Shown here one piece after another: positions 31,519-63,047 of a DNA stretch of 64,000 nucleotides. The notes beneath the pieces were generated by a model. That model was not told where the DNA came from, made no database searches, and worked only from the letters and a program-made list of their open reading frames with translations. Source of the stretch: Gemmatimonas groenlandica (GTDB taxonomy: Bacteria; Gemmatimonadota; Gemmatimonadetes; Gemmatimonadales; Gemmatimonadaceae); contig NZ_CP053085.1 in assembly GCF_013004105.1 (NCBI RefSeq), positions 1,178,001 to 1,242,000 of the forward strand, read 5' to 3'. A program made the position numbers and the translations under genes. The first letter of the stretch is position 1. Each line of letters starts with the position of its first letter.

Positions 31519-33200
31519 ACGCGCAGTTCCAGCCGGTCGCTCACGGCTGACGGAGCACTCGCTCCCGATCCCGACACGGGAATGGTGTGCGAGTAGATCA
31601 CTTCGGCCGGAAAGCGGGATCGACCGCGCACGTAGCTCGCGAGGGTCGAGAAGCTGGCACCGAACGCGGCCGCCTGAACCGTGCGGGACGGCAGCTCAAA
31701 GGTGCTCATGAGCGGCGCGCTCGACGTGGGATCGCCGCCCTCGTATCGATCGGCTCCCCACCGGCGAACCAGATAGGCGGCGGAGATCCCGAAGAACTGT
31801 CCGACGGACAAGCGCGGCGCGACTTCGAGTTCGAGTCGCGTGCCCAGCGATCGCGTGGCCGTGCTCACGACGAACGCGTCGAAGACGTTCGCGTCTGTGC
31901 GGAACGGAAGCGCCACGGCGATCTCGTCGGCGAGCGGTTTGACCGCACGCACGGTGGCACTCATCCAGAAGGACTTCGTGAGTACGAAATCCGTCGTGCT
32001 GCGCACCAGCAGCGCGTTGGCACCTTCGCCGATCGGCACATCGAACGGGTCATCGGTGCGATCAGCGCCGGCCGTTCCGAAACGCCAGCCGGCGGTGAGC
32101 ATGCTGCGTACCCCGCGCGACGGCGTCAGCAGTCGCCGCACCTGATCGGCCTGAAAGCTGTCGAACAGCAGATACGACGCGGTGAGGTCGATGTCGCCGA
32201 TACCGGCGCGACGGGTGTTGCCCAGTCGGGTGTAGCCCAGTTTCCACGCCGTGTCGCTGACAATGCGCGTCATGCCGCCCGGGCCGTAGACGGCCGTGGC
32301 GCCAGCGGGTGCGGCTCCCTCCACGATGTTGGTGATACCGAAGGCCGCGAACTCCGAGCGCAGGGTGGCGATCGTGGTCCGCACCGCGGCTTGTGCGCTC
32401 CCGTTCTCGATCGGGACCACCGGCGCGCCTCCCTTCGTCGCATCACCGTAGACCGACGCGATCGCACTGCGCGTGGTTCCGGCACGCACCAGCAACGCCT
32501 GTGCGGCGGCGCCGTTGGCGCGGATGGCGTCGCAGCCGGTGGCCGCCGGTGATGCACACCGGGTGATCTCGGCGGTGAGCTGCGTCCGCGCCAGATCGAG
32601 TTGTGACAGCACGGCGCCGTTGGCAGAGCGGGCCGCGGCGCCCGAAGTCGTCGTGTACGCCGGGTTCATCCCAACGTTGGCCGTGGAGCCCACGCGATTG
32701 AGCAGGAGCTGCGACACATCGCGCGACTCCACGTACGGTACGAGGAGCCGCAACGACAGGCGACGCGTCAGCCCCAGGCTCACGCCGAGAGGGGCGATGC
32801 TCTGACGCACTTCGCCAGCGGCATCGAGCGCGCCAAGCGAGAGGGCGAACGCCGATTGGCCGGTCAGCGTTCGGACACCTGCCTCGGCGGATACGAGTTG
32901 CGGGAAGATCGCGACGCCCGCTTGCGACGTGGCCAGCGACGCGAAAAGCGGTCGCGTCGTGGTGCCGCCACCCGCTGTCGGGGCATAGACAGCATCCCAG
33001 TCGTTCCAGAGGCCCGAGATCAGGAACCGCTTGCTCCCCTTCGGCAGAGGAATCGCATCATCGCCCAGGCCCGCCACCGTCTGCGCATGAACGGTGCCCG
33101 GTCGGACGACAGCGCCGGCCAGGAGCGCCACGCTGAGGGCGAGCATCGTGCGGAGCGAGGCGAAAAAGCGAGGCGCGGACGGCAATCGGTGTAGGGCCAA
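31494..33200 (-). CDS. Secreted, probably outer-membrane beta-barrel protein of unknown function
   Basis: 568 residues. The N terminus has a basic start, a hydrophobic stretch (TMLALSVALLAGAVV) and VHAQ, consistent with a signal peptide cleaved after Ala. The mature part alternates short polar and aromatic strands (for example GLTRRLSLRLLVPYV, LTAGWRFGTAG, RLELEVAPRLSVGQFFG), as expected of an outer-membrane beta barrel. No family is recognised. It is transcribed alone on the - strand, with a 154-base divergent gap to the next gene. The last 25 bases overlap the recN 3' end. Confidence 0.6.
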   Translation of the reverse strand: MALHRLPSAPRFFASLRTMLALSVALLAGAVVRPGTVHAQTVAGLGDDAIPLPKGSKRFLISGLWNDWDAVYAPTAGGGTTTRPLFASLATSQAGVAIFPQLVSAEAGVRTLTGQSAFALSLGALDAAGEVRQSIAPLGVSLGLTRRLSLRLLVPYVESRDVSQLLLNRVGSTANVGMNPAYTTTSGAAARSANGAVLSQLDLARTQLTAEITRCASPAATGCDAIRANGAAAQALLVRAGTTRSAIASVYGDATKGGAPVVPIENGSAQAAVRTTIATLRSEFAAFGITNIVEGAAPAGATAVYGPGGMTRIVSDTAWKLGYTRLGNTRRAGIGDIDLTASYLLFDSFQADQVRRLLTPSRGVRSMLTAGWRFGTAGADRTDDPFDVPIGEGANALLVRSTTDFVLTKSFWMSATVRAVKPLADEIAVALPFRTDANVFDAFVVSTATRSLGTRLELEVAPRLSVGQFFGISAAYLVRRWGADRYEGGDPTSSAPLMSTFELPSRTVQAAAFGASFSTLASYVRGRSRFPAEVIYSHTIPVSGSGASAPSAVSDRLELRVYTGFPRR

Positions 33201-33354: not shown

Positions 33355-35154
33355 GTGCATCTTCCTCCTGTCCCTTGGCAACTCACCGGCAACCACTGGC
33401 TGACCCTGCCGTGCATCAACCCGACGGACGGGGCCATTCACGCGGTCGGGGTACTGCATCGTGGAGCACGGGCGGCAATCGAGTTCGCCGGTTCGCCGGA
33501 GTTCATGTCGGGGCACGGTACCCCGCTCATGGGACCGGTGTTGCGTGTGGACGGAAATGTTCGTGTGCTCGCGGCAGAAGGCATCGCCTGGGAGCGAGCC
33601 CTCGGATGGTTGCCGACGTTCACCTGCACGATCGGCTCCTTGGTGGTGCGCGGGACGCTCTTCGCGCCGTACGGCCGCGATGCGGATATGGCCGGAGCCG
33701 TCTACACGTTCGCGGTGGAGAATCGCGGGGCAACCGACGTCAATCTCGAGATCGCGCTCGAGGGGGCTTTGGGCCATCGCCAGCAGCGCGTGCGGACGCC
33801 GCGCCCCTTCGATGACGACCATCTGGTCAGCATCGGTCCCGATGACGTGGTATTGCTCGAGGGAACTGCGATTCCCGGACTCGCCGCCATCGCGATCGGT
33901 AGCGACGGTCCCGCGACGCTCGAGGTCCCCTCGGAGGCGTCTCGCGATGCCCGACGCTTTGCGATACGGCGCGCGCTCGTCGTTCCGGCCAACGGGGCGG
34001 TGCAGGTCGCGTTCTACATCGCGGTTGGACCCGAACGCGATGGCGCGCAGGCGACGGTTGCAGTACTGCGACGTCGCGGATGGCGTGCGCTGCTGACAGC
34101 GACCAGAGAAGCCCTCTCGGCGCTCGAACAGACGACCGGCAGCGATGTGATGGATCGCATTGTGAACCGAAACCTGCTGTTCGCGTACTTTTACGGCGTC
34201 GGGCGCGGGCTGGACGATGCCCACTATTACCTCGTGCGGTCGCGGGCGCCTTGGCATTCCATGGGCTGCACCGTTCGCGACTGGGAAGCGCTGATGTGGA
34301 CGCTCCCCGCAGTCCAGTTGGCCGATACGGGCCTGGCACGTGAACTGTTGGTTCGCGCCTGCGAGCTGCATGGCTATGCCCCCGGTCAGGGGGTGCACTA
34401 CATCGACGGCACGCTGTTTCAGCCGGGGTTCAGTATCGAGGGGCCGGCGGCGTTCGCCATTGCCACCGATCGCTACATCCGCGACTCGGAGGACGATCAG
34501 ATCGTCGAGGATCCTGTGGTGGCGGATACGCTGTATCTCGCATCGGAGGACATCACGGCACGTCGCGATGAGCGCGTTCCGCTGTATTCCACCGAAGTGA
34601 TGCCCTCGGGCGCGCCCGCCAAGTATCCGTTCACGCTGCACGGGAATGCGGTCGTTGCCCTCGCCCTGGATGTGTTCCGTCGCACGCTCGACGAGGAAGC
34701 GGCGGCGGGTGTCGAAGACCCGGCCGCCGTACGCGCGGCGATTCGACGGCATTTCGCCGTCGATCGCGGCGAGAAAGCGCGGCTGGCCGTCGCGGTCGAC
34801 CTCACGGGCAACGCGTCGCTCGACGACGATGCCGTCGGTTCGCTGCTCTGGTTACCGCTCTACGAAGCGCTTGATCGGGACGATTCGCTGTATCGCCGCT
34901 CGGTCCGGGCGCTGCGCGTCGAGGGCGCCGCCCCCGAAGCGACGGCGCTGCTGCCGCAGATCGCGCGTCTGCTGGGTCCGGAGGCGCAGGAGGTGCTGGC
35001 GTGGCTTCGTCGGGCACCACTCGACAACGGAATCGCTGCCGAATTCGTGGATGCCGAGGGGCGTGCGCTCAGCAATGGCGGTGACGCCGCGCTGGCCGGC
35101 TTGTTGGCGCACACCGTCTGGTACGCCGCACATGCCTTGGGACTTCGGGCTTGA
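33355..35154 (+). CDS. Six-hairpin-glycosidase-like protein (possible glycoside hydrolase or phosphorylase)
   Basis: 599 residues, no signal peptide. The first ~250 residues look beta-rich (FTCTIGSLVVRGTLFAPYG; YTFAVENRGATDVNLEIAL), like the beta-sandwich of GH15/65/94-type enzymes. The rest is helical with aromatic-rich repeats such as DWEALMWTLPAVQLADTG and HYIDGTLFQPGFSIEG, suggesting an (alpha/alpha)6 barrel. I cannot identify catalytic residues with certainty. Starts at GTG 33355; no Shine-Dalgarno is obvious. Function could be cytoplasmic sugar metabolism, but that is a fold-level guess. Confidence 0.5.
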   Translation: MHLPPVPWQLTGNHWLTLPCINPTDGAIHAVGVLHRGARAAIEFAGSPEFMSGHGTPLMGPVLRVDGNVRVLAAEGIAWERALGWLPTFTCTIGSLVVRGTLFAPYGRDADMAGAVYTFAVENRGATDVNLEIALEGALGHRQQRVRTPRPFDDDHLVSIGPDDVVLLEGTAIPGLAAIAIGSDGPATLEVPSEASRDARRFAIRRALVVPANGAVQVAFYIAVGPERDGAQATVAVLRRRGWRALLTATREALSALEQTTGSDVMDRIVNRNLLFAYFYGVGRGLDDAHYYLVRSRAPWHSMGCTVRDWEALMWTLPAVQLADTGLARELLVRACELHGYAPGQGVHYIDGTLFQPGFSIEGPAAFAIATDRYIRDSEDDQIVEDPVVADTLYLASEDITARRDERVPLYSTEVMPSGAPAKYPFTLHGNAVVALALDVFRRTLDEEAAAGVEDPAAVRAAIRRHFAVDRGEKARLAVAVDLTGNASLDDDAVGSLLWLPLYEALDRDDSLYRRSVRALRVEGAAPEATALLPQIARLLGPEAQEVLAWLRRAPLDNGIAAEFVDAEGRALSNGGDAALAGLLAHTVWYAAHALGLRA

Positions 35155-35206: not shown

Positions 35207-35279
35207 GCGGGAATAGCTCAGTTGGTAGAGCACAACCTTGCCAAGGTTGGGGTCGCGGGTTCGAGTCCCGTTTCCCGCT
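35207..35279 (+). tRNA. tRNA-Gly (anticodon GCC)
   Basis: 73 bases. The acceptor GCGGGAA pairs with TTCCCGC; the D loop has the TAGCTCAGTTGGTAGAG pattern. The anticodon loop TTGCCAA gives GCC, and the T arm is CGGGTTCGAGTCCCG. The CCA end is not encoded. A strong hairpin terminator follows at 35310. Confidence 0.97.
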
Positions 35280-35309
35280 CTGATCGAGGTCGAGATTTTG
35301 AACGTGGTT

Positions 35310-35414: not shown

Positions 35415-35499
35415 ACCCGGATGGCGAAACCGGTAGACGCGTGAGACTTAAAATCTCCTGCCTCATAAGGGCGTGCGGGTTCGAGTCCCGCTCCGGGTA
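35415..35499 (+). tRNA. tRNA-Leu (anticodon TAA)
   Basis: 85 bases with the long variable arm of class II tRNAs (about TGCCTCATAAGGGCG). The acceptor ACCCGGA pairs with TCCGGGT; the anticodon loop CTTAAAA gives TAA. The T arm is GCGGGTTCGAGTCCCGC. The first anticodon-stem pair appears mismatched (T-C). CCA is not encoded. This tRNA lies directly upstream of the propionyl-CoA synthase region. Confidence 0.95.
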
Positions 35500-35574
35500 C
35501 GTGGGATGCTGAGTCGGTGGCGTGCGCACGGGCGAGTAGGCCGCCCTCACGACTCTTAGCGGTATGGAGCAGAC

Positions 35575-35978: not shown

Positions 35979-36042
35979 GAGTTTGCGTTGTGGCCGATGG
36001 TGGCGTGACGCCTCCGCGCCCCGCAGTACTCTGAGTGAAGCT

Positions 36043-39000
36043 ATGTCGACCCTGCCATCGGTAGCGCCGCCGATCGCCGAGTGCAATCCGGTTCGATCAC
36101 GAGCCGATTGGCAACGCATGTACGATGCGTCCCGCGCCGATCCCGGCGCGTTTCACGGCGACATCGCAGCCCAGCAGCTGCACTGGTTCGATCCCGCCCG
36201 GCGCGCTTGGCTGACGTGCGCGGCCGACGGGACATGGAATGGCTACGACGCGAGTACCGGCGAGCCAGTCGCATCCGACGCGCCGCGATCCTATCGGCCG
36301 TGGTCCCTCGCATTTGACGACCGCGAGCCGCCGTTCTACCGGTGGTTCGTTGGTGCGCGGACCAACGCCTGTTTTAATGAGGTCGATCGGCACGTGCTGT
36401 CGGGGCACGGCGATGAGACGGCGTTCCTGGTCGAGGGGGATCGCTGGGATCAATCCCGCGACCATGGGCGAGGGGCACCGGTCGTCGCGTGGCCGTGGAC
36501 TCGGCGCGCGCTGCTCGTCGATGTCGCACGGTGCGCCATCGCCCTGCGTCAGTTGGGGCTCACGACGGGCGATCGAATCGCTCTCAACCTGCCGAACATC
36601 CCCGAGCAGATCGCCTGGACGGAAGCCGCGAAGCGCCTCGGCATCGTGTACACGCCGGTGTTCGGCGGCTTTTCTGACAAGACGCTGGCGGATCGTGTGT
36701 TCGACGCCGGTGCCCGGGTCGTCATCACGGCAGACGGTGGCTATCGCAACGCGCAGATCGTGCCGTTCAAGGCGGCCTTCACGGATCCCGCGCTGGAGCG
36801 CTACATCCCTGTCGCACGCGCTCTGGACGCCGTGCGAGTCGCGCTGGAGTCTATCGGTCTCAGCGCGGGCGATCGGTCGCGCGTGGTGGACGCGGCGGAG
36901 GCGGCGGTGCAGGGCGAGATCACCGTGGAACGCAGCGACATCATGCGCGGCGTCGGGCGCGCGCTGAGTACCCTCACCGAGAGTAGTTCGCTCTCGGCGA
37001 CGGAGGCGAGTCGCGTGCGCACGACATTGGCACAAGCGCTGGTTGAGGTCGGCGCGGACGTGACGACGGTCATTGTAGTGCGCCACACGGGGCAGGCCGA
37101 CGTGCCGTGGCGCGAGGGGCGCGATGTCTGGGCGCACGATCTTCTGGCAAAGGCTGATGCCGAACTCGTCGCGGGAGCGGCGCGAGCGGGAGTGCAGGTT
37201 GACTCGGGTGCGGCGCTGGCGAAGGTCGCGGATCTCGACTGCATCCGGGCCGTGTGGGAGGCGGTTCCGCCCGTGCCCGTCGACGCCGAGTTTCCGCTCT
37301 TCTTCATCTACACGTCCGGCTCGACGGGAAAGCCGAAGGGCGTCGTCCACGTCCATGGCGGGTACGTCGCTGGTGTCGCGTACACGATGCGGGTGGCGTT
37401 CGATGCGCGGCCGGGCGACGTGATGTACGTCGTAGCCGACCCCGGTTGGATCACGGGACAGAGCTACATGATATCGGCGGCGCTAACGACGCGCGTCACG
37501 TCGGTGCTGGCCGAAGGCGCGCCGGTGTTTCCGAGCGCAGGGCGTTTTGCGTCGATCATCGAACGATACGGCGTCACGATTTTCAAGGCCGGCGTCACGT
37601 TCCTGAAAGCGGTCATGACTGATCCGCAGAATGTGGAAGACGTGCGCCGCTACGACCTGTCATCGCTCCGGGTGTCGACGTTCTGTGCGGAGCCCGTCTC
37701 GCCGGCGGTGCAAGCCTTCGGCATGCAGCTGATGTGTCCGTGGTACATCAATTCATACTGGGCCACCGAACACGGCGGCCTGGTGTGGACACACTTTTTC
37801 GGCAATGCGGACTTTCCGTTGCGCGCCGACGCGCACACCTATCCGCTGCCGTGGATTCAGGGCGACGTGTGGGTTGCCGACGGCGACGCGGACAGCCGCG
37901 GACAAGCGGTTCCGCGCTCGGCGGCGGATGGCGAGCGCGGCGAGATCGTGATCGAGCAACCGTACCCGTATCTCGCCAGAACCATCTGGGGAGACGCCGC
38001 TGGCTTTGTCGTTCGCGACGGCTCGGTCGCGCCGACGTGGCGTGGCGATGCGGCGCGCTATCAGCAGACCTACTGGTCGCGCTGGCGTGATCGCTGGGCG
38101 TACACGCAGGGCGACGTCGCCATCCGTCACGCCGATGGCAGCTTCTCGTTGCACGGGCGCAGTGACGACGTGATCAACGTCTCGGGGCATCGTATGGGCA
38201 CCGAGGAAATCGAAGGCGCCATTCTGCGGGACAAGCAGATGCACGCCCATTCGCCGGTGGGCAACGTGCTCGTGATCGGCGCACCGCACCGTGAGAAGGG
38301 GCTGACACCGCTGGCGTTCATCGTGCCCGCGCCGGGTCGACGACTCACGCTGGATGATCGGCGACGCCTGACCGAGATCGTACGGCAGGAGAAGGGCGCG
38401 GTGGCCGTCCCGGAGGAATTCCTCGAGATTCCGGCATTCCCTGAGACGCGCAGTGGGAAATACGTGCGACGCATGGTGCGCGCGCTGGTCGACGAACAGC
38501 CCTTAGGCGACACATCGACACTCCGCAATCCGGAAGTGATCCCGGAAATCGCCCGGGTGATCGAAGCATGGCGTGCACGACAGCGCATCTCCGAGGGCCA
38601 GCGTATTCTCTCCCTCTGGCGCTACTTCCGGGTACAGTACTACGACGTCAGCGACTCTGCGCGCATCGCGGTGGTTACGGTGACCAACGCGCCGGTGAAT
38701 GCGCTCAATGAGCGCGCGCTCGATGAGCTCTGCACCGTGGTCGAGCACTTGCGTCGGCAAGACGAAGTGCGCGCCGTGGTCTTCACCGGCAGCGGTACGT
38801 CATCGTTCGTCGCGGGCGCCGACGTGCGGCAGCTGCTCGACGAGGTCGAGACGATCGAGGACGCGTTACCGCTGCCGAACGTGGCGCATCTCGCGTTCCG
38901 CATGATCGAGCAGATGCCCAAGCCCTGCATCGCCGCGATCAACGGCGTCGCGCTTGGCGGCGGACTCGAGTTCGCGTTGGCCTGTCACTATCGCGTTGCC

Positions 39001-41484
39001 GAGCCCACCGCGGTGTTCGGGCAGCCTGAAATTCGACTCAACCTGCTTCCGGGATACGGCGGGACACAGCGGCTTACGCGGCTGCTCGCCGATCGCGATG
39101 GCAACGAGGGATTTATCACCGCGATGGAGATCATCGGGGGCGGTCGGCAGTTCTCGGCGGCTGACGGCCTTGCCTGGGGCGTCGTCGATGAAGTGGTGGA
39201 TGGTGCCACGGATGTGGTCTCGCGCGCGACCGCGTTGGCACGCGCCTTCATAACCGACGGCTCGAGCGTGCTGGCGCGACGCATGCCAAGCATCGCCGCG
39301 CGACGACTGGCATGGGAGAACCCCGGCCACCTCGACGTGGACGCCCTGCTTGCCCTCCCGCCGATCGCGCGACTGGCGGAGCAGTCTCAGCACGCCGGGC
39401 GCGGGCCGGCGATCGCGCGTGTGTTCGACGCGGTGCGGTGTGGCTGGCGCGACGGACTGATCGCGGGCCTCGCCCGCGAGGCGCGCCTGTTCGCCGAGGC
39501 CGTCGTTGATCCCGACGGCGGCAAGCGCGGTATTCAGGCGTTCTTCGACAAGCGCAGTGCGCCGCTGCCCACCCGTCGGCGACGGACGTTTGACGCAGAC
39601 GAGCAGGCGGCGGCCATTGCCCAGGGCGAGTTGCTGCCGGTCGGCGCGCCGTTCTATCCGGGGTTCACGTCCATTCCGGCGTGGCAATACGGGCACGGCG
39701 TCATTCGCGACGAACAGACGGGAGCACCGGCGCACGGTCTCCCTCGTGATGCCGAGCGAGAGCTGGTCGTTCCCGTCGACCTGCCCGGCGCGAACGACGC
39801 GCTAGTGTACGTGCTGGCGTCCGAAGTGAACTTCAACGATATCTGGGCGATCACCGGCATCCCGGTCTCGCCGTTCGACAACCACGATCAGGACTGGCAG
39901 GTCACGGGATCGGGTGGCGTCGGACTCGTGGTAGCGCTCGGGGCGGAATCGAAACGCGAAGGGCGCCTACGGGTGGGGGATCTCGTGTCGATCTATTCGG
40001 GGCAGAGTGAGCTACTGTCACCGTTTGCCGCGCGCGATCCGATGTCCGCGGACTTCCGCATTCAGGGATACGAGTCACGCACGGGAAGCCATCAGCAGTT
40101 CTTGACGGTGCAGGCGCCGCAGCTGCATCCGGTTCCGACGGATTTGACCCTGGAAGCTGCCGGTTCGTACGTGCTGAATCTGGGGACGGTGGTGCGCGCG
40201 TTGTTCACCACGCTGCGAATCGAACGCGGCCGCACCATGTTCGTCGAAGGCGCGGCTACGGGCACCGGTCTCGAAGCGCTGAAGAGCGCCGTGCGACATG
40301 GATGCGCGGTCACAGGCATGGTGTCCACATCGGACCGCGCCGACACGATTCTCGCGAGCGGCGCACGCGGGAGCATCAATCGACGCGATGCGGCGCTTCA
40401 GTCGTGTTTCACACCGGTGCCGGATTCGGCGACGGAGATCAGCGAGTGGGAGCAGGATGGTGAGCCACTGCTCAACGCATTCCGTGCGCAACACGACGGA
40501 CGGCTCGCCGACTACGTGGTGTCGCACGCGGGCGAGCTTTCCTTTCCTCGCTCGTTTCAGTTGCTCGCCGAAGGTGGGGCGCTCACGTTCTACGGCGCGT
40601 CATCCGGGTATCATTTTACGTTCGTCGGCAAGTCCGGCGCCGAGCCGCCGTCGCGCATGCTGGAGCGCGCCGCACTTCGGGCGGGTGAGGCGGTGCTCGT
40701 GTACTACGGCGTGGGTGACGCCTCGACGTCGTTGATTGATGACGCCGGGCTTGAAGCGATTGAAGCGGCCATATCGGCCGGCGCGCGCGTGTGCGTGGCA
40801 ACGAGCACCGAGGCACAGCGCGAGTTCGTGCAATCGCTCGGCTTCGGCGACGGACTCCGCGGCATTCTCGCCATCGAAACGCTGGCACGTCGCGGTGTCG
40901 GTGACTTCGCGTGGCCACGCACCATGCCGCCGCTGCCGGATGTCCGCCGCGATGGAGCGGCGTTCCGGGAGTCCGTGCGCGCCTTTCAGGAGCAGACGCT
41001 CAAGCCGTTCGGGACGGCGGTCGGCAAGATTCTCCGGTCGGCGGACAATCCGAGGGGGGCACCCGCATTGATCGTCGAGCGCGCTGGCCATGATGCGCTC
41101 GCGGTGTCGACGTCGCTGGTGCAGCCGTTCACCGGCCGCGTGGTGTACTTCGAATCGATGCAGGGGCGACGCTACAGCTTCTACGCGCCCCAAGTCTGGA
41201 CGAGGCAGCGCCGCATTCTGCTTCCAACCGCCAGCATTCTCGGCACGCATCTGTGCAACGCGTACGAGGTCGTCCGCATGAACGAACTGGTGGACGCGGG
41301 GCTGCTCGACGTCACCGCACCGACGATGGTGCCGTGGAACGATCTTGCGCAGGCACATCAGGCGATGTGGGACAATCAACACGCCGGTGCGACGTACGTG
41401 GTGAATCATGCGCTTCCCATGACTGGGTTGCGATCCGCTGATCAACTCTTTGAAGCCTGGGCAACTCAGGGGAGCCAGACGTGA
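36043..41484 (+). CDS. pcs: Trifunctional propionyl-CoA synthase (3-hydroxypropionate pathway)
   Basis: 1813 residues, nearly the size of the Chloroflexus enzyme (about 1820). Three catalytic modules occur in one chain. The acyl-CoA synthetase (about 1-865) has YTSGSTGKPKG near residue 423, GRSDDVINVSGHRMGTEE, and SGKYVRR with the catalytic Lys near 806. The enoyl-CoA hydratase (about 866-1130) has GVALGGGLEFALAC and FGQPEIRLNLLPGYGGTQR, supplying both catalytic Glu residues. The enoyl-CoA reductase of the MDR family (about 1200-1810) has VNFNDIWAITG and EGAATGTGLEALK. Such an enzyme turns 3-hydroxypropionate, ATP, CoA and NADPH into propionyl-CoA. Its stop overlaps mcr by four bases. Confidence 0.95.
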   Translation: MSTLPSVAPPIAECNPVRSRADWQRMYDASRADPGAFHGDIAAQQLHWFDPARRAWLTCAADGTWNGYDASTGEPVASDAPRSYRPWSLAFDDREPPFYRWFVGARTNACFNEVDRHVLSGHGDETAFLVEGDRWDQSRDHGRGAPVVAWPWTRRALLVDVARCAIALRQLGLTTGDRIALNLPNIPEQIAWTEAAKRLGIVYTPVFGGFSDKTLADRVFDAGARVVITADGGYRNAQIVPFKAAFTDPALERYIPVARALDAVRVALESIGLSAGDRSRVVDAAEAAVQGEITVERSDIMRGVGRALSTLTESSSLSATEASRVRTTLAQALVEVGADVTTVIVVRHTGQADVPWREGRDVWAHDLLAKADAELVAGAARAGVQVDSGAALAKVADLDCIRAVWEAVPPVPVDAEFPLFFIYTSGSTGKPKGVVHVHGGYVAGVAYTMRVAFDARPGDVMYVVADPGWITGQSYMISAALTTRVTSVLAEGAPVFPSAGRFASIIERYGVTIFKAGVTFLKAVMTDPQNVEDVRRYDLSSLRVSTFCAEPVSPAVQAFGMQLMCPWYINSYWATEHGGLVWTHFFGNADFPLRADAHTYPLPWIQGDVWVADGDADSRGQAVPRSAADGERGEIVIEQPYPYLARTIWGDAAGFVVRDGSVAPTWRGDAARYQQTYWSRWRDRWAYTQGDVAIRHADGSFSLHGRSDDVINVSGHRMGTEEIEGAILRDKQMHAHSPVGNVLVIGAPHREKGLTPLAFIVPAPGRRLTLDDRRRLTEIVRQEKGAVAVPEEFLEIPAFPETRSGKYVRRMVRALVDEQPLGDTSTLRNPEVIPEIARVIEAWRARQRISEGQRILSLWRYFRVQYYDVSDSARIAVVTVTNAPVNALNERALDELCTVVEHLRRQDEVRAVVFTGSGTSSFVAGADVRQLLDEVETIEDALPLPNVAHLAFRMIEQMPKPCIAAINGVALGGGLEFALACHYRVAEPTAVFGQPEIRLNLLPGYGGTQRLTRLLADRDGNEGFITAMEIIGGGRQFSAADGLAWGVVDEVVDGATDVVSRATALARAFITDGSSVLARRMPSIAARRLAWENPGHLDVDALLALPPIARLAEQSQHAGRGPAIARVFDAVRCGWRDGLIAGLAREARLFAEAVVDPDGGKRGIQAFFDKRSAPLPTRRRRTFDADEQAAAIAQGELLPVGAPFYPGFTSIPAWQYGHGVIRDEQTGAPAHGLPRDAERELVVPVDLPGANDALVYVLASEVNFNDIWAITGIPVSPFDNHDQDWQVTGSGGVGLVVALGAESKREGRLRVGDLVSIYSGQSELLSPFAARDPMSADFRIQGYESRTGSHQQFLTVQAPQLHPVPTDLTLEAAGSYVLNLGTVVRALFTTLRIERGRTMFVEGAATGTGLEALKSAVRHGCAVTGMVSTSDRADTILASGARGSINRRDAALQSCFTPVPDSATEISEWEQDGEPLLNAFRAQHDGRLADYVVSHAGELSFPRSFQLLAEGGALTFYGASSGYHFTFVGKSGAEPPSRMLERAALRAGEAVLVYYGVGDASTSLIDDAGLEAIEAAISAGARVCVATSTEAQREFVQSLGFGDGLRGILAIETLARRGVGDFAWPRTMPPLPDVRRDGAAFRESVRAFQEQTLKPFGTAVGKILRSADNPRGAPALIVERAGHDALAVSTSLVQPFTGRVVYFESMQGRRYSFYAPQVWTRQRRILLPTASILGTHLCNAYEVVRMNELVDAGLLDVTAPTMVPWNDLAQAHQAMWDNQHAGATYVVNHALPMTGLRSADQLFEAWATQGSQT

Positions 41485-44400
41485 TGGCAAGTCGGGAAGA
41501 CAGTGCAGCAGACGTGACTGGCACGCGCGAGCGCCGTCGCATCCCTCGAGGGCGGCTGGCGGGGAAAGTTGCCGTCGTCACGGGCGCGGCGGGCAACATC
41601 GGCACGGACATCACACGTCGATTCCTCGAAGAGGGCGCGACCGTCGTCATGACGGGGCGCGACAAGCGGAAACTTGAGGCGGCGCGGACCGCGCTCCGTG
41701 ACGAGCTTCACGTCGCCGCCTCCCGTATCATCGTGCTGCCCATGGACGCGTCCGAGCCGGGTCAGGTGCGCAGCGGCCTCGCGCAGCTGTTCGAACGCGT
41801 CGGCCGCGTCGACGTCCTCGTCAACAATGCGGGCTCGGCAGGCCCCAAGTGTTCGATGATGGACTTGCCGTTCGTCGATGCGGAACTCGCGGAGCTTGCC
41901 GCTCGCGGCATCGTGGAGTCCGAGACCGTCGGAGCGGCGACGCGCAATCTCCTTGGCGTCTCGTGGAATCTTGTGCGCGCGTTGACGCCCCATCTGGAGT
42001 CCGGTGCCAGCATCATCAACGTGTCCACCATCTTCTCGCGCACACAGTACTATGGGCGGTCGGCGTACGTGGTGCCCAAGGCGGCGCTCAACGCACTCTC
42101 TCGCGGACTGGCGGCGCAGCTGGGTCCACGCGGCATCCGCGTGAACACCGTGTTCCCCGGTCCGATCGAGTCGCCGCGAATTCGTACGGTGTTCGCGGCG
42201 ATGGATAGCCTTCGCGGAGTCGACGCGGGGACCACGGCAGTGGACTTCATGGGCCTTATGGCGCTCACGCGGAATCCGGCGCTCGACATCGCGGACAACG
42301 CGGCGCGGGCGGTCGCGACGACACCGGCACAACCGAAGGGGTTTCCGACGGTTCGCGACGTCGCCAACACCATCGTGTTTCTGGCCAGTGAGGACTCGGC
42401 GGCGATCAGCGGACACAACTTCGAGGTTACGCACGGCATGAGCGTGCGACAGGAGTCACGCAGCACGTGGGTGTCGCGCCCTGAGCTCCGCACCGTCGAT
42501 GGAACTGGCGTGCAGATTCTGGTCGCGGCCGGCGATCAAGTGACGGACGCGCTGACCGTCGCGCGTGTGCAGGCCACCTGTGGTGCTCGCGTCCTTTTGA
42601 CGTTGGGCACCGAGGAAGGCGTGCGCACCGCAAAGGATGCGCTCGGCGTCGATCCAATGGACGAACGCATTCGCGTCTTCCTGCTCGATCGCTCGCGTCC
42701 CGACACCGTCGAGCAATTCTTCGATGGTGTGCGATCGGCGGGCGAAGCGATCCAAGGGGCTATCCTCTTCCCGGCATTCGGTGCGTGGAGGTTCCGCGGA
42801 GACCTTGCCACCATCGCCGATGCGGACCTCGACGCCTTTCTGGACGGCGAGATTGTCGGCATGATGGCGCTGACGCGCGCCCTGTCGCGCTGGTGGCGAG
42901 AGGCGACGCCGGGGTCGGTCGCACCGCGCGTGGTGTTTCTCTCCAATGGCGACGATGGTGCGGGCAATGTGTACGCCGATGTGCTCCGCGCCGCGACCGA
43001 GGAGCTCTGCCGCGTCTGGCGCGACGAAGCGGAACAGCAGTATCGTGCCACCGCGCGGCCGGTCATCGAGTGGTCGAATCAGATTGTACGCTGGGGCAAC
43101 CGAGACTCGGAGGAAGTTCCTTTCGCGGCGGGGCAGGCGGCCCGTCTGCTCTTCACGCGTCGTCGCATTCGACAAGTCAATCTCTACCTGCCGACCTCGA
43201 TCGTAGAGGCGACGGGATCGCGGCGCGCCATCTTCGGATGGATGGAGTCGCTGATGGGACTGCATCTTGGTAAGGTCGCACTGATCACCGGCGGGTCGGC
43301 GGGCATCGGCGGTCAGCTGGGTCGGTTGTTGGCGATCTCCGGCGCGCGCGTGATGCTCGTCGCGCGACGACAGGATCAGCTGGAGGGTATGCGATCCGGC
43401 ATCGTCCGCGAACTCGAGGACATCGGCTACTACGCGGCGCAAGATCGCGTGGCGATGCTCGCCGAAGTCGATGTCGCCAACGAGGCGTCCCTGCGCGCGG
43501 CGGTCGATGCGACGATCGCGCAGTTCGGTCGAATCGACTACTTGATCAACAACGCCGGCGTGGCTGGCGCCGAGCAGATGGTGGTCGACATGGACGTTGA
43601 CGCCTGGCGCAACACGCTCACGGCGAATCTCGTCTCGAATTACTCGTTGATCGAGAAAGTGGTCCCGATCATGAAGCGTCAGGGCAGTGGGTACATCCTC
43701 AATGTCTCGTCGTATTTCGGTGGCGAAAAGTATGTGGCGGTGCCGTATCCGAACCGCGCCGATTACGCCGTCTCGAAGGCGGGACAGCGCGCTATCACCG
43801 AGAACTTCGCCCGTTTCGTTGGTCCGGAGATTCAGGTCAACGCCATCGCGCCGGGGCCCGTCGATGGTGACCGTTTGCGCGGCGTGGGTGGCAAGCCAGG
43901 CCTCTTTGAACGTCGTGGTCGACTCATCTTGGAGAGTCGCCGATTGAATGCGGTGTACGCGGCCGTGATCGAGGCCACGCGCAATGGAGCGGCGATCGGT
44001 GCCGTGCTGGATCTGCTGCGTGTGAATAGCGTACCTGCGCTGTCCGTCGAGCCGACGCTCCCGCCGCCCCTGCGCGCGTTATGCGAGTCGATCCTGCGTG
44101 GTGCGCGCGCGCGTGAGGACGAGGCGTCGAGCGGCGGCTACCTCATGCAGCGTTCGACCGCGTTGCGGCTCGTGAACCGGCTTCGACTCGGTGGGCATTT
44201 GTTGAAGGAGCCGGACAACGGGTCGCGATTCGCCGAGGCATGGCTCGAGGAATTCCCAGAACCGCCGCAGCCGTTTGTCGCGGCCAGCGACGTTGCGCGG
44301 GAAGCGAAGAAGATCGGCGACGGCGTGCTCAGCATGCTCCATCTTCGGAACATGCCCACGGAAGTCGAAGTGGCGCTGGCCACGGTGTTCTTCTTGAGTG

Positions 44401-45236
44401 ACCGCGCCGTGAGTGGTGAAACGTTTCAGCCGTCCGGCGGGCTGCATCAGGAGCGCACGATCACGGAGCGCGAGCTGTTCGGCCGCGCGAAGCCTGAACG
44501 CGTGGCCCGCATGCAAGGTCAGACCATCTGGCTCATTGGCGAGTATCTGACCGCGCATCTCGCGCGTGCGGCGCGCTTGGCGCTCGAGCAGGGCCACGCC
44601 GGGCGCATCGTGCTGCTGACCCGGACGGTCGAAGCCGGACGCGAGGTGCAGCAGATGCTCCGGATCGTACTGGGCGCCGACCGGGTGGAATCGCTGGTCG
44701 TTGGTGGTGATCTGGAGGGCGGGATCGATCGGGCGCTCCAGCTGGCCGGTCCGCCCGCCGCCGTGGTGTCGACGCCATTCTCTCCACTGCCGTCTCGCCT
44801 GTTTCACGATGATGGATCGTCCTCCCTCGATGCGGCCGGGTTCGCGGACCTCGTCGAGCAGCACCTGACGCACCACTTCCGCGTGGCGCGGAAAGTGTCG
44901 CTGATGGATGACGTGCGCTTGGTGCTCGTCTCGCCCGACGTTCCGATCCGGCCCACCCACGCCGAATTCGCGCTCGCGAACTTCGTCAAGACGACCCTTC
45001 ATGCCCTGACCGCTACGCTGGGCGTGGAGAACGAGCGACTGGTACACAACGTGCCGGTCAATCAGATCAACCTGACCCGCCGCGTGCGTTCGGAGGAACC
45101 GCGTGACCCGGTGGAACAGGCGGAAGAACAGGAGCGGTTCGCCCACGCCGTCCTTTTGGCCAGCGCGCCACTGCCCGAGGCCGCGGACAGCCGGTATAAG
45201 GCCCGGCTCTATCGCGGGTTGGCGATTACGGTCTAG
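41481..45236 (+). CDS. mcr: Bifunctional malonyl-CoA reductase (NADPH, malonate-semialdehyde and 3-hydroxypropionate forming)
   Basis: 1251 residues, similar to Chloroflexus Mcr (about 1220). The two halves are SDR-like. The N half has VVTGAAGNIGTDITRR near residue 35 and a Tyr-x3-Lys site, SAYVVPKAALNAL, near 196-200. The C half has ALITGGSAGIGGQLG near 601 and DYAVSKAGQRAI with Tyr ~762 and Lys ~766. In the known enzyme the C half reduces malonyl-CoA to malonate semialdehyde and the N half reduces that to 3-hydroxypropionate. GTG 41481 overlaps the pcs stop (GTGA); ATG 41484 is an equally good start. GGAG precedes both. Confidence 0.94.
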   Translation: MMASREDSAADVTGTRERRRIPRGRLAGKVAVVTGAAGNIGTDITRRFLEEGATVVMTGRDKRKLEAARTALRDELHVAASRIIVLPMDASEPGQVRSGLAQLFERVGRVDVLVNNAGSAGPKCSMMDLPFVDAELAELAARGIVESETVGAATRNLLGVSWNLVRALTPHLESGASIINVSTIFSRTQYYGRSAYVVPKAALNALSRGLAAQLGPRGIRVNTVFPGPIESPRIRTVFAAMDSLRGVDAGTTAVDFMGLMALTRNPALDIADNAARAVATTPAQPKGFPTVRDVANTIVFLASEDSAAISGHNFEVTHGMSVRQESRSTWVSRPELRTVDGTGVQILVAAGDQVTDALTVARVQATCGARVLLTLGTEEGVRTAKDALGVDPMDERIRVFLLDRSRPDTVEQFFDGVRSAGEAIQGAILFPAFGAWRFRGDLATIADADLDAFLDGEIVGMMALTRALSRWWREATPGSVAPRVVFLSNGDDGAGNVYADVLRAATEELCRVWRDEAEQQYRATARPVIEWSNQIVRWGNRDSEEVPFAAGQAARLLFTRRRIRQVNLYLPTSIVEATGSRRAIFGWMESLMGLHLGKVALITGGSAGIGGQLGRLLAISGARVMLVARRQDQLEGMRSGIVRELEDIGYYAAQDRVAMLAEVDVANEASLRAAVDATIAQFGRIDYLINNAGVAGAEQMVVDMDVDAWRNTLTANLVSNYSLIEKVVPIMKRQGSGYILNVSSYFGGEKYVAVPYPNRADYAVSKAGQRAITENFARFVGPEIQVNAIAPGPVDGDRLRGVGGKPGLFERRGRLILESRRLNAVYAAVIEATRNGAAIGAVLDLLRVNSVPALSVEPTLPPPLRALCESILRGARAREDEASSGGYLMQRSTALRLVNRLRLGGHLLKEPDNGSRFAEAWLEEFPEPPQPFVAASDVAREAKKIGDGVLSMLHLRNMPTEVEVALATVFFLSDRAVSGETFQPSGGLHQERTITERELFGRAKPERVARMQGQTIWLIGEYLTAHLARAARLALEQGHAGRIVLLTRTVEAGREVQQMLRIVLGADRVESLVVGGDLEGGIDRALQLAGPPAAVVSTPFSPLPSRLFHDDGSSSLDAAGFADLVEQHLTHHFRVARKVSLMDDVRLVLVSPDVPIRPTHAEFALANFVKTTLHALTATLGVENERLVHNVPVNQINLTRRVRSEEPRDPVEQAEEQERFAHAVLLASAPLPEAADSRYKARLYRGLAITV

Positions 45237-45276: not shown

Positions 45277-46269
45277 ATGACTGACGTCGTCGCGCTCGCA
45301 ACCGAACTGCTGTCCATCGACTCCACCACGGGCCGTGAAAAGGACGTGGTGGATGCCGTCGCCCGCTGGCTCGTCGCCCACGGCTGGAACGTCAGCCTCC
45401 AGGAGGTCGAGCCAGGTCGCTCCAACGTGTGGGGTACGCGGCGCGGTGGCGGCGTGACCCTCTCTACACATCTTGATACCGTCCCGCCATTCCTCGAACC
45501 CCGACTCGAGGGCGGTCGCTTGTATGGGCGCGGCGCCTGCGATGCCAAGGGCATAGCGGCGGCCATGATGGTGGCGGCGCAGCGATTGGTCGACTCCGGT
45601 GAAGATCGGATCGACCTCTTGTTCGTGGTCGGCGAAGAGAAGGGCTCGCCAGGCGCGCGTGCCGCGAACCGGCTCAATCCCACCAGCCGCTTCCTGGTGA
45701 ACGGCGAGCCCACCGAGAGCAAGCTGGCCTCCGGATGCAAAGGCGCTCAGCGGGTCATCGTGCGCGTGCGGGGCAGAGAAGCGCACTCGGCGTACGCCCA
45801 TCTCGGTCGCAGCGCGCTTGATCCGCTCCTCGATCTATTGCCCAAGCTCCGCACGTTGTCGCTGCCGATCGACCCGATTCTCGGCGCCACGACGTACAAC
45901 ATCGGCGTGCTCCGCGCGGGCTCCGAAGCGAACATCGTGCCCGGGTTGGCTGAAGCGGAGATCATGATCCGGCTGGTCGGTGACATTGCGCCGGTGAAGG
46001 CGGCATTTACCGCGTGGGCGGGTGACCAGGTCGAGCTGATCTGGGGATCGCATATTCCGGCGCAGCACTTTCAGGTGCTCAACGGGTTCGAGGTGGAGCC
46101 CGTTGCGTACACCAGTGACATCCCGCTGCTCGATCGCTGGGGGACGCCGCTGCTTTTCGGGCCTGGATCCATCCATGTCGCGCATACGCCACTCGAGTAC
46201 ATCGACGTCGGCGAACTCGAAGCGTCGGTCGACGCTTACGAACGAATCGTTCGCACCCTACTCGCATGA
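45277..46269 (+). CDS. dapE: M20-family deacylase, probably succinyl-diaminopimelate desuccinylase
   Basis: 330 residues. M20 metal-binding motifs are STHLDTVPP (His, catalytic Asp), GRGACDAKG (bridging Asp), VVGEEKGS (catalytic Glu and metal Glu), NGEPTE and a C-terminal HVAHTPLE. A central lid or dimerisation domain (about 165-270) interrupts the peptidase fold. The gene opens a run of diaminopimelate genes including dapD, which makes the succinylated substrate, so DapE fits. The related LysK/ArgE hydrolases of the LysW or arginine pathways are the main alternative. The stop overlaps asd. Confidence 0.82.
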   Translation: MTDVVALATELLSIDSTTGREKDVVDAVARWLVAHGWNVSLQEVEPGRSNVWGTRRGGGVTLSTHLDTVPPFLEPRLEGGRLYGRGACDAKGIAAAMMVAAQRLVDSGEDRIDLLFVVGEEKGSPGARAANRLNPTSRFLVNGEPTESKLASGCKGAQRVIVRVRGREAHSAYAHLGRSALDPLLDLLPKLRTLSLPIDPILGATTYNIGVLRAGSEANIVPGLAEAEIMIRLVGDIAPVKAAFTAWAGDQVELIWGSHIPAQHFQVLNGFEVEPVAYTSDIPLLDRWGTPLLFGPGSIHVAHTPLEYIDVGELEASVDAYERIVRTLLA

Positions 46270-47342
46270 CTGCTCCCACCCATCGCTGGCCGGTCGCCGT
46301 TCTCGGCGCTACCGGCGCCGTCGGCCAGGCGTTTATCCGCCTGCTCGAAGGACACCCGTGGTTCGATCTGGTCGAAGTCGCTGCTTCTGAGCGCAGCGCC
46401 GGCAAGTCGTACGCGTCTGCGACCCGATGGCTCGAAGGCGCCCTGCCGTCGGCCGTCGCGGCGCTCGAGGTGAAAGCGTGCACGCCGGAGCAGGTGAAAG
46501 CGCCGATTGTCTTTTCCGCGCTCGACTCGTCGGTCGCTGGTGAGGTGGAGGCTGCCTTTGCGGCCGCGGGGCGGCTCGTGCTCAGCAACGCGAAGAACTA
46601 CCGGATGGAATCCGACGTGCCGCTCGTGATTCCCGAAGTGAACGGGGATCACCTGGCGCTGCTCACCCAACAGCGGGCGAATCGTGGATGGCCAGGCGGC
46701 ATCGTCACGAATGCGAACTGCGCCGTGACCGTCGCCGCGATGGCGCTCGCGCCGTTGCACACCGCGTTCGGCGTCACGAAGGTCTTCATCACCACCATGC
46801 AGGCGGTGTCCGGCGCGGGCTATCCGGGCGTGCCGTCCCTCGACATCCTCGGTAACGTCATTCCGTACATCGGCGACGAGGAGCCGAAGATCGAAACCGA
46901 GCTCGTGAAGCTGCTCGGCACCTACAACGGCGAGACGATCGTCGCGGCGCCCATCGTCACGAGTGCGCACGCCAATCGCGTCGCGGTCGAACACGGGCAC
47001 ACGGTCTGCATGTCGGTGGCCTTCGAACGGGCACCGACGCCGGATCAAGCCCTCGAAACTTTGCGCGCGTGGAAGGGCTTCGCTGCCGTGCAGGGATTGC
47101 CGTCGGCGCCGGTGCCGGCACTCGTCGTTCGTGACGAGTTGGATCGGCCGCAAGCGCGTCGTGACGTGAACGCCGGCAACGGCATGGCCGTGACCATTGG
47201 CCGCGTCCGCGCCGACAATCTGTTCGATCTGCGGCTGGTTGCGATGGCGCACAACGTGGTGCGTGGCGCGGCAGGCGGCTCGATTCTGAACGCCGAACTG
47301 CTGGTCGCCACCGGACAGCTCGACGGATTGGCCGCCTCGTGA
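46266..47342 (+). CDS. asd: Aspartate-semialdehyde dehydrogenase (archaeal/fungal-type)
   Basis: 358 residues. It has the NADP-binding VAVLGATGAVGQAFIRLL, SNAKNYRM, catalytic Cys in TNANCAVTVAAMAL, and late VTSAHANRVAVEHGH, matching the fungal/archaeal branch of aspartate-semialdehyde dehydrogenase. It reduces aspartyl phosphate to aspartate semialdehyde. Sulfolobus malonyl-CoA reductase belongs to the same branch, but the position between dapE and lysC strongly favours Asd. The gene overlaps its neighbours by four bases on both sides. Confidence 0.9.
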   Translation: MTAPTHRWPVAVLGATGAVGQAFIRLLEGHPWFDLVEVAASERSAGKSYASATRWLEGALPSAVAALEVKACTPEQVKAPIVFSALDSSVAGEVEAAFAAAGRLVLSNAKNYRMESDVPLVIPEVNGDHLALLTQQRANRGWPGGIVTNANCAVTVAAMALAPLHTAFGVTKVFITTMQAVSGAGYPGVPSLDILGNVIPYIGDEEPKIETELVKLLGTYNGETIVAAPIVTSAHANRVAVEHGHTVCMSVAFERAPTPDQALETLRAWKGFAAVQGLPSAPVPALVVRDELDRPQARRDVNAGNGMAVTIGRVRADNLFDLRLVAMAHNVVRGAAGGSILNAELLVATGQLDGLAAS

Positions 47343-48694
47343 TCGTTGCAAAGTTCGGCGGCACTTCGGTGGCCGATGCCGCCGCGATCAACCGTGTGGT
47401 CGACGTCATCGTCAACAAGCAGGCCAGTGGTCCGGTGGTCGTGGTCTCGGCGCTGGGCGGCGCTACCAACGTCCTACTCGATCTCGCGCACAAGGCGGCG
47501 GCCGGTGAGTTGCTTGCCGCGCTGCAGATGGTCGAGCAGCTGCGCGATCGCCATCTTCGCGAAGTGCATGCGCTGCTCGGCAGCGCACCGGAAGCCGACG
47601 AGCTCGCCCTCGAGATCAGTGCGAGCTTCGATGAGCTGGCGCATTTGGCGGAAGCGTTCCGAACGCTCGGGTATCTTACGCCGCGTTCACTCGACACTGT
47701 CGCGGCGCTCGGCGAGTTGCTGTCGTCGCAGATCGTCGCCGCGGCTTTCCGGCATCGTGGGTATCCCGCCGTGTGGATCGATGCACGCGACGTGATGAAG
47801 ACGAACGATTTCTTTACGCGCGCCGAGCCCGATGTCGACGCCATCGCGCTCGCGTCACAGGAGCACCTGCTGCCGCTGCTACAGCAGGGGAAGATTCCCG
47901 TGCTCGGTGGTTTCGTTGGCTCCGCGCCGGGGCGCGTCACCACGACACTTGGCCGCGGCGGATCGGACTATTCGGCTTCGCTGATCGGGGCGGCCATTGA
48001 CGCCACGGCCATCGAGATCTGGACGGACGTGGACGGCATGCTCACGGCCGATCCCCGGGTGATCCCGGGCGCGCAACTGATTGAACGCATCAGCTTCGAC
48101 GAGGCGGCCGAACTCGCCGCGTTCGGCGCGAAGGTGCTGCATCCGGCCACGATTGCGCCGGCGGTCCAGCGTGGCATCCCGGTCTTCGTGTTCAACTCGC
48201 GTAAGCCGGACGGAAAGGGCACCATGATCGCGTTCGACGCGCCCCGCCTTCCGGTTCGAGCGATCGCCGGCAAGCGCAGCACCACGCTCGTGAAGTTGCG
48301 TTCCTCGCGCATGCTGTTGGCGCCCGGCTTCCTGCGACGCGTGTTCGAGGTGTTCGAAACGCATCGCACGTCCGTCGACGTGGTGACGACGTCGGAAGTC
48401 TCGGTGTCGGTCACACTCGACGATGCCACCAACCTCGGTGCGATTCTGCAGGATCTCGCGGCCTTCGGAGATGTGGCGGTGGAACGTCGCAGCGGAATCG
48501 TGGCGATCGTCGGTGCGGGCATTGCCGACGGCAGCCGGGCGATCGCCGACGCGCTGATCGCCCTCGGTCCGATTCCGGTCTATATGGCGTCGCTGAGCGC
48601 CACCGGTATCAACTTCACGCTCGTGATCGATGACGAGCAGGTCGTGCCGGCGATGCAGCGTCTGCACGCCGCATTCTTCGAGCACGCCTCGTGA
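47339..48694 (+). CDS. lysC: Aspartate kinase
   Basis: 451 residues, a monofunctional single-chain aspartokinase. VAKFGGTSVADAAAINRV starts the kinase domain, and FTRAEPDVDAIA and TLGRGGSDYSASLIGAA lie further on. Two ACT regulatory domains occupy the C terminus (about 310-445), with VDVVTTSEVSVSVTLD, the usual lysine/threonine feedback site. It phosphorylates aspartate, the first step toward lysine, threonine and methionine. GTG start coupled to asd and stop coupled to dapB. Confidence 0.94.
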   Translation: MIVAKFGGTSVADAAAINRVVDVIVNKQASGPVVVVSALGGATNVLLDLAHKAAAGELLAALQMVEQLRDRHLREVHALLGSAPEADELALEISASFDELAHLAEAFRTLGYLTPRSLDTVAALGELLSSQIVAAAFRHRGYPAVWIDARDVMKTNDFFTRAEPDVDAIALASQEHLLPLLQQGKIPVLGGFVGSAPGRVTTTLGRGGSDYSASLIGAAIDATAIEIWTDVDGMLTADPRVIPGAQLIERISFDEAAELAAFGAKVLHPATIAPAVQRGIPVFVFNSRKPDGKGTMIAFDAPRLPVRAIAGKRSTTLVKLRSSRMLLAPGFLRRVFEVFETHRTSVDVVTTSEVSVSVTLDDATNLGAILQDLAAFGDVAVERRSGIVAIVGAGIADGSRAIADALIALGPIPVYMASLSATGINFTLVIDDEQVVPAMQRLHAAFFEHAS

Positions 48695-59555: not shown

Positions 59556-59563
59556 GGCCGCCG

Positions 59564-62535: not shown

Positions 62536-63047
62536 AGTACATCGTGGATGTGAACGGCGAGCGCGTGATCGTGGATCTCGATGGTGCGTATGCCGAAGTC
62601 GACGGCGAGCGTGTCGCCGCCTCGCTTGCTGCGGTCGAGGGGACGCCGGTGCGCCTGCTGCGCATTGGGGAACAGGTCCATCGTCTGGTCGCGCGACGTG
62701 GATTGTCGCGGGGGCGCTGGACGCTCGATTTGGATGGTCAGCGCGTGGAGGCGGAGGCGCTGGACGAGCGGATGCGGGCCATCCGCGATCTGACCGCGGC
62801 GGCGGCCGAGGCCAGCGGGCCGGCGCCCTTGATGGCGCCGATGCCGGGGCTCGTGGTGCGTGTGTCGGTGGCCGTCGGCGACACCGTGAGCGCGGGGCAG
62901 GGGCTCGTGGTGGTGGAGGCCATGAAAATGGAGAACGAGCTGCGGGCGTCGGTGGCCGGGGTGGTCACGGCGGTGCTGGCGGTTCCGGGACAGGCCGTCG
63001 ACAAGGGCGCGCTGCTGGTGGAACTGGGGCCGCTCCCGTCGGAGTGA
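62532..63047 (+). CDS. Biotin carboxyl carrier protein of acyl-CoA carboxylase
   Basis: 171 residues. The C-terminal biotinyl domain (about 98-168) contains the biotinylation motif EAMKMEN with Lys132 as the target. The N-terminal half (MKYIVDVNGERVIVDLDGAY and GRWTLDLDGQRVEAEAL) is a beta-rich interaction domain as in separate carriers of propionyl-CoA/methylcrotonyl-type enzymes. It carries carboxybiotin between the biotin carboxylase and the carboxyltransferase. Start shares four bases with the methyltransferase stop. The downstream gene mscL is convergent. Confidence 0.93.
   Translation: MKYIVDVNGERVIVDLDGAYAEVDGERVAASLAAVEGTPVRLLRIGEQVHRLVARRGLSRGRWTLDLDGQRVEAEALDERMRAIRDLTAAAAEASGPAPLMAPMPGLVVRVSVAVGDTVSAGQGLVVVEAMKMENELRASVAGVVTAVLAVPGQAVDKGALLVELGPLPSE

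Follow-up and report, generated by a model that had tools for sequence, protein, structure and literature searches.

We analysed a 64-kb window (positions 1178001–1242000) of the genome of Gemmatimonas groenlandica, which is a single contig of 5,179,092 bp. The window contains two very large neighbouring genes on the plus strand, pcs and mcr, predicted to encode the propionyl-CoA (coenzyme A) synthase and the bifunctional malonyl-CoA reductase of the 3-hydroxypropionate bi-cycle. The pcs gene extends from an ATG at window position 36043 to the stop at 41484 and encodes 1813 amino acids (aa); the listed open reading frame (ORF) opens earlier, with a TTG at 35983. The mcr gene ends at 45236 and starts either with a GTG at 41481 (1251 aa) or with an ATG at 41484. 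An earlier interpretation made from the DNA letters alone (the sequence-only reading) had correctly assigned the DNA to the Gemmatimonadota and had described two giant, intact genes with an overlap of four bases. Both ORFs are indeed full length with zero internal stops, but the four-base overlap holds for the GTG start alone: the junction reads GTGATGG, and the ATG start gives a one-base overlap (TGATG).

Pfam identified the domains of Pcs in the expected order (AMP-binding, AMP-binding_C, crotonase, zinc-type alcohol dehydrogenase), and the approximate module borders are residues 84–838 for the acyl-CoA synthetase, 868–1160 for the enoyl-CoA hydratase and 1210–1782 for the enoyl-CoA reductase. 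By these matches, CoA ligase, hydratase and reductase are fused in the order that characterizes the three-module Pcs architecture. In a phmmer search, residues 19–1811 aligned to the solved structure 6eqo with 2444 bits, the runner-up reaching 290 bits. We take 6eqo to be the propionyl-CoA synthase of Erythrobacter NAP1, although its chain is labelled acetyl-CoA synthetase. The motifs YTSGSTGKPKG and ETRSGKY can be read directly in the protein. From its sequence, Pcs is predicted to form propionyl-CoA from 3-hydroxypropionate, CoA, ATP and NADPH.

Mcr consists of two short-chain dehydrogenase/reductase (SDR) halves according to Pfam. The phmmer search aligned residues 25–1251 to 8hi4 (1237 bits) and residues 23–1251 to 8hjw (1169 bits), and further matches were 6k8s, to the C half, and 6k8v; 8hi4, 8hjw and 6k8s are presumably the enzymes of Roseiflexus, Chloroflexus and Porphyrobacter, respectively. 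The closest ordinary SDR in the PDB reached 87 bits, compared to 1237 bits for the Mcr-type match, and the best other SDR of the G. groenlandica genome 77 bits, compared to 2737 bits for Mcr. YxxxK motifs are present in the N half (YVVPK) and in the C half (YAVSK), the latter aligning with YAVSK of 8hjw. The tandem SDR halves, both motifs and the extended C-terminal regions agree with the make-up of a bifunctional Mcr. In a phylogenetic tree the protein groups with the Mcr enzymes of Proteobacteria and Chloroflexota, and by sequence it belongs with characterised Mcr and not with ordinary SDRs. The C half would reduce malonyl-CoA and the N half would turn malonate semialdehyde into 3-hydroxypropionate, if the split is as in the Chloroflexus enzyme. 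The E-values and lengths of the Pcs and Mcr matches are far beyond chance; no model for a fused Pcs or a fused Mcr was among the best 25 NCBIfam matches. The sequence-only reading had named both enzymes from their modules, lengths and catalytic motifs, which are as it described them. End-to-end alignment with characterised enzymes and the placement of Mcr among known Mcr sequences support both identifications, and a module predicted to lead from malonyl-CoA to propionyl-CoA is well founded.

A second cluster, meh|smtA-smtB-mct-mcl-mch, lies at genome positions 1565863–1572586, about 0.35 Mb from pcs-mcr. On the minus strand it comprises mch (L058 5863–6903; 580 bits to 4e3e), mcl (L058 6900–7970; 624 bits to 6kin/4l7z), mct (L058 7988–9232; 623 bits to 7xkg, 617 bits to 8apq) and two CoA-transferase genes (L058 9229–10458 and about 10470–11690), which family and context make candidates for smtB and smtA. 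The meh gene (L058, about 11735–12586) is divergent from the minus-strand genes and, with 200 bits to 8huc, is a moderate match and the weakest of the set. A family search of the genome gave three tandem family III CoA-transferases at 1568078–1571657. Mct scored 655 with TIGR04253 against a cut-off of 725. Of the active-site and gating residues named for structure 8apq (PMC9813914), Mct keeps 10 of 11 (Leu43, Arg47, Ile74, Asn100, Phe101, Arg104, Glu133, Asp135, Tyr136 and the catalytic Asp165), the single change in the alignment being Arg75 to Lys. The candidate SmtA/SmtB pair adjoins mct and is 81–87% conserved in four relatives; in two other genomes, G018 (L117) and G052 (L067), a meh-mct-mcl-mch cluster is found without an adjacent smtAB pair. 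By homology, Mcl, Mch, Mct and Meh of the glyoxylate branch are all present. A CoA-transferase at genome position 3016471 and a PF13452 match at 2231646, inside a 706-aa frame, were not accepted as bi-cycle genes.

Genes for methylmalonyl-CoA mutase, MeaB and the B12-binding subunit are located at about 1311805–1316418, and methylmalonyl-CoA epimerase at 1923528–1923938 (TIGR03081, 128 bits, cut-off 115); a strict motif scan for the epimerase remained empty, and a looser motif together with the curated model located the gene. Carboxyl_trans has four matches in the genome, and the window contains a set (57999–63047) of an acyl-CoA carboxylase carboxyltransferase subunit (57999–59555; propionyl- or acetyl-CoA; PF01039 655 bits, TIGR01117 below cut-off), a biotin carboxylase subunit (59552–61114; NCBIfam accC/NF006367 over cut-off) and a biotin carboxyl carrier protein (62442–63047; PF00364 and NCBIfam carrier-protein models), all on the plus strand. 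In the region L116 10005–13419 (genome 1316005–1319419), the gene for the B12-binding mutase subunit precedes those for an acyl-CoA carboxyltransferase and an AtuA-family protein, so that mutase and acyclic-terpene-type genes are combined in an unusual way. Because it adjoins the AtuA-family gene, this carboxyltransferase, at first read as propionyl-CoA carboxylase, was not assigned a substrate. Isocitrate lyase was not found in the G. groenlandica genome (G000). PF00124 matches at 2084478 and 2085377 show that pufL and pufM are present.

Judged by its genes, with smtAB and the acetyl- and propionyl-CoA carboxylases as candidates, the 3-hydroxypropionate bi-cycle is complete for the diagnostic steps, and the same genome encodes pufLM. 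The genome search for malyl-CoA lyase, mesaconyl-CoA transferase, methylmalonyl-CoA mutase and epimerase that the sequence-only reading had proposed located all of them outside the pcs-mcr locus, and this makes the case stronger than the partial module considered there.

Among 99 Gemmatimonadaceae genomes, mcr was present in 13, pufLM in 17 and both in 11. The pufLM genes occurred in 11/13 genomes with mcr versus 6/86 without it (Fisher p ~7e-9), and the association was also seen at the genus level (6/7 versus 3/28, p ~3e-4). The mct gene was found in 10/13 mcr-positive and 0/86 mcr-negative genomes of the family, so that all 10 mct genomes carry mcr. In the phylum, mcr was present in 11/298 genomes; it was present in none of the 15 other Gemmatimonas genomes tested. 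In genus g25, two genomes (G052 and G073) have mcr but lack pufLM; the former carries a mct-mcl-mch cluster as well. Within the family, mcr therefore tracks phototrophy strongly but not absolutely.

The pair pcs-mcr is flanked upstream by a GH125-like gene (33355–35154; PF06824 weak, 22.9 bits versus a cut-off of 23.4, and synteny) and downstream by genes for an ArgE/DapE-family hydrolase (45277–46269; NCBIfam and synteny), which opens a lysine-biosynthesis run, aspartate-semialdehyde dehydrogenase (asd, 46266–47342) and aspartate kinase (lysC, 47339–48694), the last two over the NCBIfam cut-offs; all are on the plus strand. The same arrangement is found in the genomes of genus g24 and in G018, and its downstream side in G052. 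The GH125-like neighbour is syntenic in L069, L070 and L072–L074 and at the empty sites L113–L115, where three Gemmatimonas congeners lack pcs-mcr. In G018 (L070 6457–8482) and G052 (L068 7068–9006), mcr and DapE are separated by an extra stretch of about 2 kb. The tree of the Mcr C half has the same branching as that of concatenated DapE-asd-lysC, with G000 first, then g24, then G052 with G018; the three PDB sequences in the Mcr tree were taken from printed alignments and may contain a few letter errors. Between genera, the C halves are 65–76% identical, with intact ORFs and active-site motifs. The conserved site in several genera and the match to the neighbours' tree make vertical inheritance of pcs-mcr, with loss in other Gemmatimonas, the simplest reading; recombination across the flanks between relatives may be an alternative.

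Other Mcr sequences appear to have a different past. In genus g4 (G003, G059 and G036; L071, L015 and L017) the C half is 68% identical to 6k8s and groups with the Porphyrobacter enzyme and a Rubrivivax metagenome-assembled genome (MAG) with 100% support. The g4 genes, with an Mcr of the proteobacterial type, apparently have a second, independent history, and the family thus contains two Mcr lineages. The G003 contig lacks the usual lysC neighbours, where visible. The closest pcs-mcr pair (81% in the C half) is that of MAG GEMMA1 (L018, 10001–19155), in a different neighbourhood without the GH125 and DapE-asd-lysC flanks. Mcr of L126 (G200, family f5) is nested in the Gemmatimonadaceae clade although G200 itself is classified in a different family, which suggests transfer of Mcr between families. 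A full-length, divergent homologue on a very long branch (L127, G315, from another family of the class; contig positions 3181–6792; 46–48% identity) may have a different function.

Further features of the window are the genes for tRNA-Gly (gcc; 35207–35280) and tRNA-Leu (taa; 35415–35500), both on the plus strand and identified by ARAGORN, and a 321-aa ORF without Pfam match (31587–32552) between a RecN-like and the GH125-like gene. This ORF shows 35–37% identity among congeners, compared to 75–80% for its neighbours, and is fast-evolving.

From the genes, motifs, co-occurrence and synteny described above we infer enzyme activities, flux and a coupling to light. The order of steps follows the established biochemistry of Chloroflexus. 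Acetyl-CoA would be carboxylated to malonyl-CoA, which Mcr would convert with NADPH to 3-hydroxypropionate and Pcs further to propionyl-CoA. Carboxylation, epimerisation and rearrangement of propionyl-CoA would give succinyl-CoA, Smt would yield malyl-CoA, and Mcl would cleave it to acetyl-CoA and glyoxylate. Glyoxylate and propionyl-CoA would then be turned into pyruvate and acetyl-CoA by Mcl (condensing), Mch, Mct, Meh and again Mcl, via beta-methylmalyl-CoA, mesaconyl-C1-CoA, mesaconyl-C4-CoA and citramalyl-CoA. Light captured by the reaction centre probably spares organic carbon and provides reducing power, so that bicarbonate is co-assimilated with acetyl-CoA-forming substrates. Because isocitrate lyase is absent, the bi-cycle could double as an anaplerotic route.

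G. groenlandica TET16 belongs to the aerobic anoxygenic phototrophs; its description calls it photoheterotrophic, and no RuBisCO homologue was found in it (PMC7844134). A gene-complete bi-cycle that is used mixotrophically, with light-assisted co-assimilation of bicarbonate, is the reading we favour, with a probability of roughly 0.6. An organism described as living on organic matter alone may therefore build biomass from bicarbonate too. Indirect support comes from the field: Gemmatimonas was among the dominant genera in heavy DNA fractions after stable isotope probing of cryoconite with 13C-bicarbonate (PMC12011081), and mcr is present in a Gemmatimonas MAG from a glacier (PMC13184969). Co-assimilation of organics and bicarbonate has been proposed for Chloroflexus, as cited in PMC6593406. 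Several points weigh against light-assisted co-assimilation. With NaHCO3 and either sulfide or thiosulfate, TET16 failed to grow photo- or chemoautotrophically, and acetate, propionate and 3-hydroxypropionate are missing from its listed substrates (PMC7844134). The assignments of the candidate SmtA/SmtB and of Meh rest on context plus family and not on a characterised close homologue. The acetyl- and propionyl-CoA roles of the carboxylases are putative. The co-occurrence tests ignore shared ancestry, the counts lack phylogenetic independence, and MAGs do not cover whole genomes. The lack of autotrophic growth with sulfide or thiosulfate favours mixotrophic co-assimilation over strict autotrophy.

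The strongest competitor, which we nevertheless consider unlikely, is a purely heterotrophic use. Mcr and Pcs would serve acetyl-CoA anaplerosis, as a reductant sink or in assimilation of 3-hydroxypropionate or acrylate, and the mch-smt cluster would separately salvage glyoxylate and propionate; net CO2 fixation would be negligible, and light would play no part. Growth of TET16 on sugars and pyruvate (PMC7844134), the missing isocitrate lyase, the non-phototrophic G052 and G073 with their mcr genes (and, in G052, mct-mcl-mch) and the use of partial bi-cycles for organic assimilation elsewhere (PMC6593406) all fit this explanation. It does not predict the confinement of mct to mcr-positive genomes, i.e., the co-occurrence of both clusters, or the concentration of mcr in phototrophs, and any carbon that passes through the acetyl-CoA and propionyl-CoA carboxylases necessarily brings bicarbonate in. 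More doubtful still is conditional photoautotrophy, in which bicarbonate alone would suffice in the light given a suitable donor, e.g., H2, that was absent from the original tests. It agrees with the gene-complete bi-cycle, with pufLM and the linkage of mcr to phototrophy in the family, with a published growth negative that is limited to sulfide and thiosulfate (PMC7844134), and with the use of H2 by Gemmatimonas aurantiaca (PMC7784904). However, autotrophic growth was not obtained under the conditions tried (PMC7844134), no hydrogenase turned up when about 1.8 of the 5.2 Mb were scanned for motifs, which is a weak test, and the ATP and NADPH cost of the bi-cycle is high for a strictly aerobic, low-yield phototroph. 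That pcs-mcr is a recent foreign island or a decaying acquisition, functionless in G. groenlandica, agrees with its lack in 15 other Gemmatimonas and the empty site in three congeners, but is highly improbable given a GC content equal to that of the rest of the window, the same chromosomal site in several genera, an Mcr tree that branches as the DapE-asd-lysC tree, and ORFs and active-site motifs that are intact despite the divergence between genera.

Light-assisted mixotrophic use of the bi-cycle can be extended to a broader proposal, for which we see even odds: a Gemmatimonadaceae clade of aerobic purple-type phototrophs would couple bacteriochlorophyll phototrophy to a complete bi-cycle, vertically inherited along with an Mcr lineage of its own. 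In the light, G. groenlandica would then fix bicarbonate, either mixotrophically or, given a suitable donor, as an autotroph. Descriptions of phototrophic Gemmatimonadota present them as photoheterotrophs. With a cultured phototroph whose closed genome has genes for every diagnostic bi-cycle enzyme, candidates included, it becomes testable whether aerobic anoxygenic phototrophs can use a RuBisCO-free CO2-fixing route. The pathway would be an oxygen-tolerant, mesophilic to cold-water counterpart of the thermophilic Chloroflexus pathway and helps to gauge bicarbonate assimilation by such bacteria in lakes, streams and ice; two Mcr lineages within one family bear on how it has spread.

The sequence-only reading had asked whether such genes were already reported. 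They were, for two Gemmatimonadales MAGs with all bi-cycle genes (Garritano et al. 2022, PMC9802188) and, for mcr, in the glacier MAG (PMC13184969). For G. groenlandica no report was found in the literature searched, which excluded most subscription papers; the bi-cycle is mentioned neither in PMC7844134 nor in the ecogenomic survey PMC10581226.

Like the bi-cycle of Chloroflexus aurantiacus and Roseiflexus, that of G. groenlandica comprises a fused Mcr, a trifunctional Pcs, Mcl, Mch, Mct, Meh and a candidate Smt, and its Mcl and Mct score above 600 bits with Chloroflexota structures. It differs in its host, a phototroph of the Gemmatimonadota that is strictly aerobic, in the overlap of pcs and mcr as a pair, and in that autotrophy was not observed. 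In its C half, Mcr shares 55–56% identity with the Chloroflexota enzymes and 60% with that of Porphyrobacter. The pcs-mcr genes of Proteobacteria (Erythrobacter NAP1, 6eqo; Porphyrobacter, 6k8s; the Rubrivivax MAG, L020) show full-length homology in phototrophic relatives, and in L020 pcs is directly upstream of mcr, but proteobacterial Mcr forms a separate clade. The Kentron symbionts (PMC6593406) share the second-cycle enzymes, which there serve organic assimilation, and have an open cycle without the Mcr and Pcs that G. groenlandica possesses. The MAGs of PMC9802188 come from the same phylum and order, with the same claim of all genes, and with them G. groenlandica joins a pathway type already known in its order. 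They are MAGs with autotrophy tied to inorganic electron donors, whereas our data concern a phototroph in culture and its closed chromosome, and include synteny, trees and pufLM co-occurrence. Bi-cycle genes in Gemmatimonadales are thus already known; what G. groenlandica adds is a phototroph in culture, an association with phototrophy across the family and a probably vertical inheritance.

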